Positions 28,932 to 32,829 of a stretch of DNA of 64,000 nucleotides are shown here, in pieces. Every line of letters begins with the position of its first letter. Position 1 is the first letter of the stretch. The notes beneath the pieces were generated by a model, which was given only the letters and a program-made list of their open reading frames with translations, was not told where the DNA came from and did not search any database. The translations under genes were made by a program, and so were the position numbers. Origin of the DNA: Asaia prunellae JCM 25354 (lineage in GTDB: Bacteria; Pseudomonadota; Alphaproteobacteria; Acetobacterales; Acetobacteraceae); NCBI RefSeq assembly GCF_000613885.1, contig NZ_BAJV01000001.1:124001-188000 (forward strand), given 5' to 3'.

Positions 28932-28976
28932 AAACAATAACCTGCCATACTGGCACACATGCCGCGTCCGGGACGC
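28932..28976 (-). terminator. Hairpins after the Y-RNA array
   Basis: Read leftward, GCGTC-CCG-GACGC (28976-28964) is followed by TGCCA-GTA-TGGCA (28955-28943) and then GGTTATTGTTT. These small stems directly follow the fourth RNA and could end it before the aldehyde dehydrogenase leader. The stems are short, so confidence is moderate. The rest of the gap to 28749 shows nothing recognisable. Confidence 0.4.
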
Positions 28977-29109
28977 CAGCACCGGAGAACAAGAAGATAC
29001 AGAACATTTCTATCTGAGCTATCTGCCGGAGCAGAGCAGGATTTGAACCTGCGCCCTCCCGATAAACGGGCACTCTACCTGTAGTTCTGTAGGCATTTCT
29101 CCAGTGCTG
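28977..29109 (-). ncRNA. Y4: Y-RNA-like RNA with a permuted tRNA-like module (YrlA-like)
   Basis: A 133-nt RNA folded by hand. The lower stem is 13 bp with one wobble (29109-29097 with 28989-28977); the 5' internal loop is ATGCC; the upper stem TACAGAAC/GTTCTGTA is 8 bp; the 3' internal loop is TCTTCTTG. The head contains every tRNA arm in permuted order: 3' half of a D-arm with GG (GGTA-GAGT), a short anticodon-like arm CCCG-TTTAT-CGGG, a 5-nt variable loop AGGGC, a T-arm GCAGG-TTCAAAT-CCTGC, an acceptor stem TCTGC/GCAGA closed by the tetraloop TCCG, then TA and the 5' D-strand GCTC. The opened D-loop is joined to the Y stem. Bacterial Y RNAs of YrlA type are known to carry a tRNA-like module and to sit beside rsr genes. 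Confidence 0.75.
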
Positions 29110-29118
29110 ACGCCTGAC

Positions 29119-29175
29119 CAGGAGGACAAGGATGTGTCGGATTTTTGCAATGTAATCCGACATGCATTCCTCCTG
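29119..29175 (-). ncRNA. Y3: short Y-RNA-like stem-loop
   Basis: Lower stem CAGGAGGA/TCCTCCTG (8 bp), 5' internal loop ATGCA, upper stem TGTCGGAT/ATCCGACA (8 bp), apical loop TACATTGCAAAA, 3' internal loop CATCCTTG. The internal-loop and apical-loop bases match those of Y1, Y2 and Y4, while the stems differ in sequence, as expected for conserved structure. It ends about ten bases before Y4. Confidence 0.7.
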
Positions 29176-29250
29176 AACCTCAGTTGATTCCTCTAACAGA
29201 AGATATTTTCACCTGATTACCTGAAGTCCCCACAACACGGCATTGCGGCA

Positions 29251-29306
29251 AAGCAGGACAAGGAAACGACGGACAGGGACATGTAGTCCGTCTGGCATTC
29301 CTGCTT
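29251..29306 (-). ncRNA. Y2: short Y-RNA-like stem-loop
   Basis: Lower stem AAGCAGGA/TCCTGCTT (8 bp), 5' internal loop ATGCCA, upper stem GACGGAC/GTCCGTC (7 bp), apical loop TACATGTCCCT, 3' internal loop GTTTCCTTG. Same layout as Y3, with compensating differences in both stems. It lies between Y1 and Y3, spaced by about 75-110 bases of unassigned sequence. Confidence 0.7.
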
Positions 29307-29413
29307 CCCATAAGAGACCAGCTGCTATGAAGGGTTACTGCAAGAGCAGAGAATGACGGAAATCCACCTGGCAACTGTGTTTCACCGCATATTCTCGTGG
29401 CATGATTAAAATC

Positions 29414-29499
29414 CCTGGCGACAAAGGGGTTGAAAGACGGGGACGGACCCAGCCGAACGGGAAGCCGCCGTGAATGTAGTCTCTCCGGCATTCGCCAGG
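29414..29499 (-). ncRNA. Y1: Y-RNA-like RNA directly after rsr
   Basis: Lower stem CCTGGCGA/TCGCCAGG (8 bp), 5' internal loop ATGCCG, upper stem GAGAGAC/GTCTTTC (7 bp, one wobble), a 40-nt GC-rich head beginning TACATTC, and 3' internal loop AACCCCTTTG. It begins six bases after the rsr stop codon, so protein and RNA are probably made on one transcript and then processed. Confidence 0.65.
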
Positions 29500-29504
29500 A
29501 TGGT

Positions 29505-31061
29505 CTATATCCTTTCCTTTTCTATTTCTCTCACCCAGTAGGAGGCTCCTGCCTCTCCTGAGGCGAACGCAGCAATCTGATCAAACACGGCATCGGAAAA
29601 TCCTCCGATATTCAGAATATCATCCCGTTCGCTGGCCTGGCTCGACCCGTAAGGCTGTATGTCGACACAGACCAGACGCGCAGCAGGACAACGCTGTTTC
29701 AGACATTCCCATTCACGCATCAGCGCCGTGCCTCGGGCATTCCCATCGACACTCATCCAGGATTCATTATCCGAGATAAAAATCACCAGATCAGCCTGCT
29801 CCTTCCGTTCATTCAACCGCACAATCGGTGCTGCACAATCCGTTCCACCACCTCCAATCGCAGCGAGACGCGTGGCATTGGTCATGATCGTATCGCGCGG
29901 CTCAAGCACAACATCACAGACATGCTGCTCGAAAGGCAGAACCAGCGCATCACGATTGGCACGCTTGATGGCTGCTGCCACCAGAGCCGCCACGTCGATG
30001 CAGCGCACCGTGCTCGTTGCTCCGCGCCGAAAGCCCGTGACAGGTGACGCCATGGAGCCCGAAACGTCAGGACAGATCACCACGCGCCCGGCGACATGCG
30101 GTACATTGGCCACCGCCAGTTCCATGGCATCATGCAATGCATCGGCCAATGCGCCATCGACATCCGGCGAGAGAGCACGCAACGTTGCCATCAGCTGATA
30201 AGGCATGGCCCTGGCTGCACGAATACGCTCCGGATCACGCAAAACCGCCGCCACATGAGCAACCGTCCCTGCGTCACTGAAGGCCCCAAAGCGCGTCAGC
30301 ATATTCAGACTCTGGCGCAGCATCTGCCAGGAAGCCCGTCGGGCAACGCTTTCCCAATGCGCAGGCGTCAGAGGCAGACTACCCAGAAGCTGAAAAGGCA
30401 CTTCTGGCAGGACATCACTCTGACCACTGCGAAACGCAATCAACGTCTGTACAGGCTCTGGCAGAAGCACAACTTCTGCAGGGCGATCAATCAACCAAGC
30501 ATAAAACGCCTCGCGCCTTTTGTCGCGCGGGCACGGATGCACCATGCGGATCACATCAGCCAGAGAAGGTGACTGACCAATCGAAGCCGACAGAAGCTGG
30601 GCCTCTGTCGCAGCATTCAGCCAGTCCTGCACCAATGCCTTGGGCCGTGAACCCAGCGATTTACGACCGACCTGACCAGAACGCATAACCTGTACAAAAT
30701 TGCGCAGCATCTTGCCATTGGTTACAATCCGCGGGAATGCCCTGGCAAAAAGAGCAGGATCACGCAGCGAGAGCACCGCCAGCAGCACGCATGGCGTGTC
30801 TTTCATATGCCCTCTCTCACGCACATGAATGGCAGCCCGGGCCAGAAAACCGGGACTGACCTCCCCGGCAAGAGCAATCAGCTCCTGCATCTGCGACGCG
30901 GCGTCCTTGTAATAGCCACCCCCGAAACTTCCGGTCATGGCAAGCTGTGCCAGCTTGTGGGGCGCAGCCAGATCATAGGCGGGAGCACCCGACTGGTTCA
31001 GACAGTCGCTTTGCGGCACCAGCCGCCCCCGCGAAGACGCAAACAATGATCTGTTTGCCAT
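29505..31061 (-). CDS. rsr: Ro60-like TROVE-domain protein (Rsr)
   Basis: A 518-residue orthologue of Ro60, the ring protein that binds Y RNAs and misfolded or damaged RNAs. The N-terminal two thirds is the helical-repeat TROVE ring, with GRKSLGSRPKALVQDWL near 133-149. The C-terminal von Willebrand A-like domain has an intact metal site, DVSGSM at 332-337, plus GGGTD near 405. The start ATG 31061 has AAGGAAA upstream, and a GTG eight codons earlier is possible. It is divergent from rtcR and followed by four Y-RNA-like RNAs, the typical context of bacterial RNA-repair loci, though the ligase rtcB is not here. Confidence 0.9.
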   Translation of the reverse strand: MANRSLFASSRGRLVPQSDCLNQSGAPAYDLAAPHKLAQLAMTGSFGGGYYKDAASQMQELIALAGEVSPGFLARAAIHVRERGHMKDTPCVLLAVLSLRDPALFARAFPRIVTNGKMLRNFVQVMRSGQVGRKSLGSRPKALVQDWLNAATEAQLLSASIGQSPSLADVIRMVHPCPRDKRREAFYAWLIDRPAEVVLLPEPVQTLIAFRSGQSDVLPEVPFQLLGSLPLTPAHWESVARRASWQMLRQSLNMLTRFGAFSDAGTVAHVAAVLRDPERIRAARAMPYQLMATLRALSPDVDGALADALHDAMELAVANVPHVAGRVVICPDVSGSMASPVTGFRRGATSTVRCIDVAALVAAAIKRANRDALVLPFEQHVCDVVLEPRDTIMTNATRLAAIGGGGTDCAAPIVRLNERKEQADLVIFISDNESWMSVDGNARGTALMREWECLKQRCPAARLVCVDIQPYGSSQASERDDILNIGGFSDAVFDQIAAFASGEAGASYWVREIEKERI

Positions 31062-31171
31062 GACATGATTTCCTTTCTCGTTCACCCCCTTGTTTTACTG
31101 CCCGGCGGACAGGGCAGAAACAGAAAAGAAAAATCGCGACAAGTTATTGATTCAGAAAAGGAAATAGCTGT

Positions 31172-31199
31172 TTTACAGAATTCATCAATTGATTATACT
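31172..31199 (+). promoter_or_regulatory. Sigma-70-like promoter for rtcR
   Basis: TTTACA at 31172-31177 and TATACT at 31194-31199 with a 16-bp spacer lie about 38 bases before the rtcR ATG. On the opposite strand the same bases give TATAAT but with no good -35 box. I found no sigma-54 (GG-N10-GC) promoter in the rsr-rtcR gap. Confidence 0.5.
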
Positions 31200-31236
31200 A
31201 TCTGTTGGTATCGCTTTTTATCCTGTGAGATCGTCC

Positions 31237-32808
31237 ATGAAAAATATTGTTATCGGTTTTCTGGGCACCTCTCTCGATCAGACGCGTCGCAGCTGGCGAC
31301 CAAGCCTGCAGCTCTGCGCGCAGCCTGATTTTCCTGTGTCCCGCTTCGAGCTGCTTTACGACCCGCACCATGACAGCCTTGCCCGCAATCTTGCCTGCGA
31401 TATTGCGACAGTATCTCCTGATACAGAGGTCCTGCTTGTCGAATTCGCACTCGACAATCCCTGGGATTTTCAGGAGGTTTACGGAAAACTGTATGATTTC
31501 GCAGAAAATTACGGATTTGACGAAGAGCGCGAACGCTATCATGTCCATCTGACAACAGGCACACATGTAGCACAGATCTGCTGGTTCCTGCTGACAGAAA
31601 GCCGCCATATCCCTGCTGCGCTTTTGCAGAGCATACCGCCTTACAAGACGGATACGTCACGTGGCGGAATCGACATCATTGATCTCGATCTGACCCGCTA
31701 TAACGCGTTACAGCGCCGGTTCGAGGCGACAGCCCGCATCCATTCGGGACGCTTGCGCGGGAATATCGACACAAAAAACCGGTCCTACAGCGCAATGATC
31801 GAAAAACTCGAACAGGTCGTTTCACTCTCCGACGCTCCTGTCCTGATCACTGGTGAAACCGGCACCGGGAAGACGACCCTCGCCACACGACTTCATGAAC
31901 TCAAATTACAACGCAGACGTCTCAAGGGAAGGCTTGTCAGTATAAACTGTGCAGGATTGCAAGGCCCACATGCCATGGCAGCCCTGTTTGGTCAGAGGCG
32001 GAATGTGACAGGACTGGCCGGGACAGAACGCGCAGGCTTCATCAGTGAAGCAAATGGCGGAATGCTGTTTCTCGACAATATCGACTGTCTGCCGGATGCC
32101 GAGCAGGGGTTGCTCCTTGATGTTCTGGAAAGCGGCGCTTTTTACCCCCTGGGCTCCGATCATGCTTCCAGCAGTCGATTTCATCTCGTTGCCGCAACCA
32201 GACGCCCGGTAGCCGAACTGGCACAGACCGGAGGACTCCGCCCCGATCTTCTCGCCAGCCTAAGGCTATGGGTCTTTGCTCTCCCTCCCCTGCGTACCCG
32301 CCCCGAAGACATGGAGGCCGAGATCGCCCATGAGCTGAGCGAGGCAGAACAACATCTGTCCTGCAAGCCAGGCATTAACAAGGATGCCTATACCCGCTAT
32401 TTACGGTTCGCACGTGATCCGGGCTCACCCTGGCCTGGCAATTATCGCGACCTTGGCGCCTCGATCACCCGTCTTTGTACACTGGCAGAGCGCGGGCGCA
32501 TTACCCTGGCAATGGTAGAAACTGAAATTGCCCTGCTGCAAGAACAATGGCGGGCCATGGCCCAGGACCCGGATCAGGCCTTGCTGGAAGCGCTTTGCGA
32601 GACACCAGAGGCCATCGATCAGTTTGATCGGACGCAGCTTGCCGTCGTCATCCGCACCTGTCGTGCCTCTTCTTCCCTTTCTGCTGCCGGACGCCAGCTT
32701 TTTGCCGTGTCCCGACAGGGAAAAACCAGTCAGAACGACGCCGACAGGCTGCGAAAATATCTCGCCCGCTTCGGGCTCGACTGGGAGCGCGTCACCGGAA
32801 ACATCTGA
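31237..32808 (+). CDS. rtcR: RtcR-like CARF/AAA+ regulator with altered sigma-54 motif
   Basis: A 524-residue RtcR homologue. The N-terminal CARF-like sensor domain spans about 1-165 (TTGTHVAQICWFLL at 106-119). It is followed by the AAA+ domain with an intact Walker A, GETGTGKT at 206-213, and the typical RtcR C-terminus, SRQGKTSQNDADRLRKYLARF. In canonical RtcR the AAA+ loop reads GAFTGA and Walker B reads LFLDEI. Here the same slots, without length change, read NVTGLA (256-261) and LFLDNI (277-282). Sigma-54 contact and normal ATP hydrolysis are therefore doubtful. It faces rsr and presumably still governs it. The motif comparison to E. coli RtcR is from memory. Confidence 0.88.
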   Translation: MKNIVIGFLGTSLDQTRRSWRPSLQLCAQPDFPVSRFELLYDPHHDSLARNLACDIATVSPDTEVLLVEFALDNPWDFQEVYGKLYDFAENYGFDEERERYHVHLTTGTHVAQICWFLLTESRHIPAALLQSIPPYKTDTSRGGIDIIDLDLTRYNALQRRFEATARIHSGRLRGNIDTKNRSYSAMIEKLEQVVSLSDAPVLITGETGTGKTTLATRLHELKLQRRRLKGRLVSINCAGLQGPHAMAALFGQRRNVTGLAGTERAGFISEANGGMLFLDNIDCLPDAEQGLLLDVLESGAFYPLGSDHASSSRFHLVAATRRPVAELAQTGGLRPDLLASLRLWVFALPPLRTRPEDMEAEIAHELSEAEQHLSCKPGINKDAYTRYLRFARDPGSPWPGNYRDLGASITRLCTLAERGRITLAMVETEIALLQEQWRAMAQDPDQALLEALCETPEAIDQFDRTQLAVVIRTCRASSSLSAAGRQLFAVSRQGKTSQNDADRLRKYLARFGLDWERVTGNI

Positions 32809-32829
32809 TTTTTCCAGTGCGCTGCATGA

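Follow-up and report, generated by a model that had tools for sequence, protein, structure and literature searches.

Rsr, Y RNAs and PNPase have a known joint biology (parts of PMC4726728 and PMC8394870), which in Deinococcus takes the form of a Y RNA/Rsr/PNPase complex (RYPER). Salmonella YrlA (Rfam RF02553), from the rsr-yrlBA-rtcBA locus with its divergent rtcR, has tRNA-like parts (PMC8394870) and a tRNA-like domain that PMC11472068 treats as a circular permutation of tRNA; in the Rfam alignment its T arm, acceptor hairpin and D arm stand in succession. Here we analyse the window, a 64,000-nucleotide stretch of the Asaia prunellae genome, in which four Y-RNA-like elements (Y1-Y4) follow an rsr gene. 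As at the Salmonella locus, rtcR is divergent and Y4 is encoded beside rsr, with the same lower stem and loop motifs and a tRNA-like domain. Unlike YrlA, Y4 has its D stem split around the rest of the domain and scores below the Rfam gathering score, and unlike the Salmonella locus the window has three more elements without a tRNA motif and belongs to a genome in which RtcB and RtcA were not found. Like RYPER, the locus pairs a Ro60 homologue with Y RNAs, but with several putative ones that have different heads. The same core motifs recur, in arrays of 3 to 7 elements, in Rhodobacterales loci L017 and L020, Rhizobium-like L038 and L039, Akkermansiaceae L024 and A. siamensis L014. D-loop-permuted heads are common to the window, L014, L017, L020, L038 and L039; elements in YrlA order also occur in L017, L020, L024, L038 and L039, with none in the window.

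The rsr gene and its four Y elements

The rsr gene (29505..31061, minus strand, starting at MANRSLF within an open reading frame that reaches 31085) encodes a product that matches Pfam vWA_Ro60 (4.9e-17), and a profile made from 10 Rsr relatives retrieved Deinococcus Rsr (2nvo, 1.5e-33) and Xenopus Ro60 (1yvp, 2.5e-21). H175 of the window Rsr aligns with H187 of Xenopus Ro60, which we take to be a residue that matters for Y RNA binding. Judged by these matches, the window Rsr is a true member of the Ro60 fold family.

All four elements lie 3' of rsr on the same strand, encoded next to the gene as bacterial Y RNAs are. Y1 (29414..29499, minus, 86 nt) has a mid-sized head without a tRNA motif and was identified by the structural scan and by model R1; Y2 (29251..29306, minus, about 56 nt) and Y3 (29119..29175, minus, 57 nt) are almost headless and were both identified by the scan, a genome-wide pattern search and folding, Y3 also having an intact counterpart in A. 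siamensis; Y4 (28982..29104, minus, 123 nt) has a tRNA-like head and is delineated by a sub-threshold match to Rfam YrlA, by R1 and by pairing counts. Common to all are a lower stem (8 bp in Y1-Y3, 6-8 bp in Y4), an upper stem (7, 7, 9 and 8 bp in Y1, Y2, Y3 and Y4, respectively), a 5' internal loop AUGC(C/A), an apical loop that begins UACA and a 3' internal loop that ends CUUG (CUUUG in Y1). The preliminary description had reported four minus-strand elements with common stems and loops and differing stem sequences, one of them beginning six bases after the rsr stop. All four were recovered, and 29499, the first stem base of Y1, is indeed the sixth base past the stop codon TAG at 29507-29505.

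As the elements had been folded by hand around short motifs, chance resemblance had to be considered, and several lines of evidence speak against it. First, scanning the two strands of the 64 kb for the structure (AUGC, CUUG, one lower and one upper stem) returned exactly four sites, namely Y1-Y4, all inside the interval, a figure that measures specificity rather than blind discovery because the scan pattern was derived from the finding itself. In 40 first-order Markov simulations of the window the mean was 0.225 sites per 64 kb, and when the interval was simulated 20,000 times one site arose in 7 cases and two or more in none. Second, a sequence pattern for the short elements matched only Y2 and Y3 in the 3.18-Mb genome, and the reversed control matched nothing. 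Third, a second scan, of 27 related loci (177,896 bases), placed 61 of 61 matches on the rsr strand and no farther than about 1.35 kb downstream of the gene. Folding z-scores were -4.61 for Y2, -4.67 for Y3, -2.75 for Y4 and just -0.96 for Y1, which is therefore supported by comparison and not by folding energy: R1 matches it at E 1.6e-4 over 29 sources and 0.0021 within its own genome. The same model gives 124.6 bits on Y4, one of the six rows from which it was built, and does not have Y2 or Y3 among its matches. None of Y1-Y4 reached an Rfam gathering score, and Y1-Y3 are unlisted with the YrlA model at E up to 5. R1 also matches ordinary tRNAs (2 of its 16 viral-contig matches overlap tRNA genes of L061), and in each of the seven Asaia genomes that lack rsr it gave weak matches (E 0.007 to 1), which were read as chance. 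Likewise dropped as chance was a Y-like 3' motif (CTTGTCGCGA) near 31140, upstream of rsr, to which A. siamensis L014 has no counterpart there.

Covariation in orthologous loci, a check proposed in the preliminary description, was strong. Among 152 candidates picked by their loop motifs alone, with pairing unused and 12 redundant or unneeded loci omitted, 5.49 of 8 lower-stem pairs could form versus 3.98 ± 0.09 with strands swapped (maximum 4.32 in 2,000). The 25 Acetobacteraceae candidates, from eight loci (window, L004, L014-L016, L018, L019, L021), gave 5.80 versus 4.39 ± 0.26 pairs (maximum 5.40 in 5,000); both candidate sets include chance matches, which dilute the signal. In 65 cores from 25 bacterial loci, 91% of the lower stem was paired versus 68% after swapping and 96% versus 73% of the upper stem, the cores having been selected by pairing, which favours it; the constancy of AUG, UUG and most of UACA in these cores is no evidence because the second scanner demanded them. 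Finally, six type-D elements, whose tRNA-like heads have the same order as that of Y4, fit one structure in which 92.2% of 204 cells are paired and 19 of 34 pairs have changed on both sides; neither figure was reached in any of 500 shuffles, and slid structures were 38-44% paired. Alignment A2 understates pairing, since the upper stem of A. siamensis and some of the hairpin columns are misregistered in it; the MAFFT alignments A3, A4 and A5, which were out of register too, were excluded from the counts. The swapped-strand test refutes a chance origin unless the orthologous loci are misassembled, and we regard such an origin as exceedingly improbable.

With a position directly 3' of a Ro60 homologue and a covarying common structure of closing stem, conserved internal loops and upper stem whose sequences differ, the Y-RNA-like identity first proposed for the elements is upheld: Y1-Y4 are very probably bacterial Y RNAs and putative partners of Rsr/Ro60. 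They could instead be structured parts of the rsr mRNA 3' end (hairpins for stability, processing or termination) that never become separate Rsr-bound RNAs. The start of the array six bases past the rsr stop, on the same strand, fits such a role, as does a simple scan that found no promoter of their own for the elements, which are probably on the rsr transcript initially. On the other hand, the loops match between elements of distant phyla, the heads include tRNA-like domains, a viral contig (L042) has its elements upstream of rsr, and the scan found a T-run terminator after none of the four, the nearest terminator-like sites lying downstream of Y4. An exclusive role in the mRNA is thus very unlikely.

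Array size, turnover and a present-or-absent cassette

The preliminary description had held one or two Y RNAs to be usual and four tandem copies a rarity. This expectation did not hold in the 28 related rsr loci, in which we counted 1 element (5 loci), 2 (1), 3 (10), 4 (6), 5 (2), 6 (3) or 7 (1), hence at least three in 22 and at least four in 12. These counts combine second-scan and R1 matches and are all lower bounds, because the contigs of L018 and L020 are short, many loci have 1.5 kb of flank and the second scanner overlooks several elements, among them the type-D one of A. siamensis; nor are the 28 loci independent, as L004, L016, L018 and L019 are all Komagataeibacter-like. With counts from 1 to 7, four elements are ordinary in this clade, and the window array belongs to a clade in which Y arrays are common. 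The second scan found a Y element in none of eight remote Rsr relatives (L006-L013), all outside the 28.

Among 32 IMG/VR loci that encode an Rsr relative, six gave second-scan matches (those of L051 and L068 are identical), with 4 to 7 Y-like elements on viral contigs L042, L043, L061 and L073 and as many as seven in L073. Separately, 51 plasmid records, of which 43 are from Rhizobium, contain rsr-like DNA (e.g. NZ_CP140810.1 552880-554066).

Within Asaia the array has changed. A degenerate copy (29354..29405, minus), missed by the scans and by R1, lies between Y1 and Y2 and aligns with the intact first A. siamensis Y element at a score of 40 (maximum 31 in 500 shuffles). Intact A. siamensis counterparts were found for Y3 (score 52, shuffle maximum 24) and Y4 (95, maximum 34). 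Decayed counterparts of Y1 and Y2 were sought there and rejected, with scores of 22 and 20 versus shuffle maxima of 25 and 27.

The whole locus is present in some Asaia genomes and absent in others. The Y array is followed by an aldehyde dehydrogenase gene, and a CN-hydrolase gene lies on the far side of rtcR (31237..32808, plus strand; Pfam RtcR, 2.4e-67, and motif comparison). Two of nine Asaia genomes have rsr and eight of nine the aldehyde dehydrogenase gene; in all six rsr-less genomes with the latter gene, the CN-hydrolase gene is directly next to it (the open reading frames at the junction were viewed in two of the six). The intact junction implies that rtcR, rsr and the whole array come and go together as a cassette of about 3.9 kb, with an approximate extent of 28935..32828 by blastn against the six rsr-less loci. 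The array beside rsr is as first read, but that reading had overlooked both the degenerate fifth copy and the fact that the locus is a cassette.

Such turnover could mean that the copies are redundant Y RNAs, the array raising dosage only and the differences between heads being drift. The range of copy number across the 28 loci, the single copy in the Komagataeibacter loci and the degenerate copy in the window all agree with this proposal. However, the two elements clearly kept in both Asaia species are one of each kind, the headless Y3 and the tRNA-like Y4, and a headless element together with one that has a tRNA motif recurs in L015, L020, L021, L025, L026 and L031-L033. We consider a pure dosage effect possible but less likely than not, and favour Y RNAs with distinct heads.

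The permuted tRNA-like head of Y4

The tRNA-like domain of Y4 (29014..29079, minus), defined from its sequence and the common structure of six elements, runs in the order D stem 3' half (GGUA-GAGU), small hairpin in the anticodon place, T arm (T loop UUCAAAU), acceptor-like hairpin and D stem 5' half (UA-GCUC). As the D stem is split around the rest of the head, the Y stem exits from the D loop. The preliminary description had picked out the four elements and had not noticed this permuted head. By sequence reading, the D-loop order is found in 13 elements of 10 loci: the window, L014, L017, L020 (two), L021, L035, L036, L037, L038 (two) and L039 (two). When these were re-ordered to tRNA order, ARAGORN called a tRNA in six of the 13 (L035, L036, L038 twice and L039 twice), with no amino acid assigned to four of the six, versus 0 of 60 shuffles per element. 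It made no call for the other seven, Y4 included, in which the acceptor and anticodon-side hairpins are short. The Y4 head as it stands is not recognised as a tRNA: ARAGORN called none in the window, and the Rfam tRNA model gave 21.4 bits versus a cut-off of 29.

With the Rfam YrlA model (gathering score 69), Y4 scores 32.8 bits (E 2.5e-4). In the seven loci scanned, five elements reached 69 or more, at 70.6 to 85.2 bits, and none was of the D-loop order. Each of the eight D-loop elements that were compared with the model stayed below the cut-off; seven of these (L017, L020 two, L021, L038 two and the window) scored 25.8-47.8 bits, and that of L014 had no match up to E 0.5. As some elements of YrlA order also fall below 69 (e.g. 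L017 6083 at 55.8 bits), a score under the cut-off is not in itself diagnostic of the D-loop class. In the literature searched, the full text of the main bacterial Y RNA paper excepted, we found no description of the D-loop order or of headless RNAs, and we claim no priority.

At least one Y RNA per species reportedly has a tRNA-like domain (abstract of Chen et al. 2014); in the window Y4 has one, in permuted order. Komagataeibacter-like loci have a single Y element without such a domain (L016 5583-5671, L019 5586-5674, L004 1393-1481 and L018 3332-3420), with scant downstream DNA in L004 and L018. No tRNA motif was found in the 4-kb flanks of L016 and L019 around their one Y element, so these two would be exceptions to this rule.

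Other heads were observed in passing. The Y element at L015 5587-5677 (Acetobacter garciniae) has only the T arm and small hairpin of a tRNA-like head and is perhaps an intermediate in its loss. An ordinary tRNA-Gln gene (L020 3922-3997) sits within a Rhodobacterales Y array and is a possible source of tRNA-like heads. By eye, the heads at L024 4131-4266, L036 846-989 and L038 453-593 resemble a permuted tRNA-Leu-like domain with a long variable arm.

Regulation and putative function of the array

The divergent rtcR adjoins rsr and the Y elements as it does in an RtcR-regulated rsr-yrl-rtcBA RNA repair operon. Such an operon also comprises rtcB and rtcA, and neither is present here by our search: RtcB (PF01139) and RtcA (PF01137) had no match in the 95%-complete window genome. 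Of 17 genomes with rsr, 14 had an RtcB match, the exceptions being G000, G068 and G190. The sigma54 wiring of such an operon, a GAFTGA motif in RtcR and a -24/-12 box, is likewise lacking. The GAFTGA motif of the window RtcR is replaced (FGQRRNVTGLAG), and no -24/-12 sigma54 box was found before rsr (31062-31236); rpoN itself is present in the genome. Among 36 rsr loci compared, 28 show RtcR within the sequence analysed, with the motif missing in 13 (the window included) and G(A/S)(F/Y)TGA kept in 15. Within the 150 nt preceding rsr, a TGGCAY box followed downstream by G(C/A) was found at none of the 13 loci with a motif-less RtcR and at nine of the 11 motif-keeping loci tested (in four of the 15 the start codon was unrecognised), two of the nine boxes being far from rsr (-112 and -125). 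Loss of the motif and loss of the box thus go together across the 24 loci tested for both. With GAFTGA lost, any control of the rsr-Y locus by the window RtcR is putative.

If what is known of Rsr applies here, each element would bind the outer face of the Rsr ring through its lower stem and loops, this docking would stabilise the Y RNA and gate the ring, and the head would decide what joins the complex. The tRNA-like head of Y4 might tether PNPase or attract tRNA enzymes, like YrlA, and Y1 would bring another head; Y2 and Y3, being nearly headless, could occupy Rsr and gate it while tethering no nuclease. The array, itself changing through gain and loss of copies, would set the mix of Rsr complexes, probably following RNA damage sensed by RtcR. 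We are fairly confident of the core of this model, that Y1-Y4 are Y RNAs made together with Rsr whose heads set the mix of Rsr complexes. A bolder proposal, possible but on balance doubtful, is that the D-loop-opened head is a second tRNA-mimicking Y architecture, reached by a permutation other than that of YrlA, and that Asaia combines it in one array with headless Rsr competitors that tether no nuclease, its RtcR having given up both the use of sigma54 and its service to RtcA/RtcB. This would make it a self-contained Rsr system whose RNA heads can be exchanged.

With its altered motif, the window RtcR offers a chance to study a sigma54 activator deprived of its contact with sigma54. Since the window elements score below the cut-offs of current Rfam models or not at all, RNAs of this kind are probably underrepresented in annotations. 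The existence of a D-loop-permuted head suggests that mimicry of tRNA arose repeatedly, or was remade, on one and the same Rsr-binding stem. Should the heads recruit different partners, such arrays would be natural head-swap experiments on what Y RNAs do for Ro60 in bacteria.
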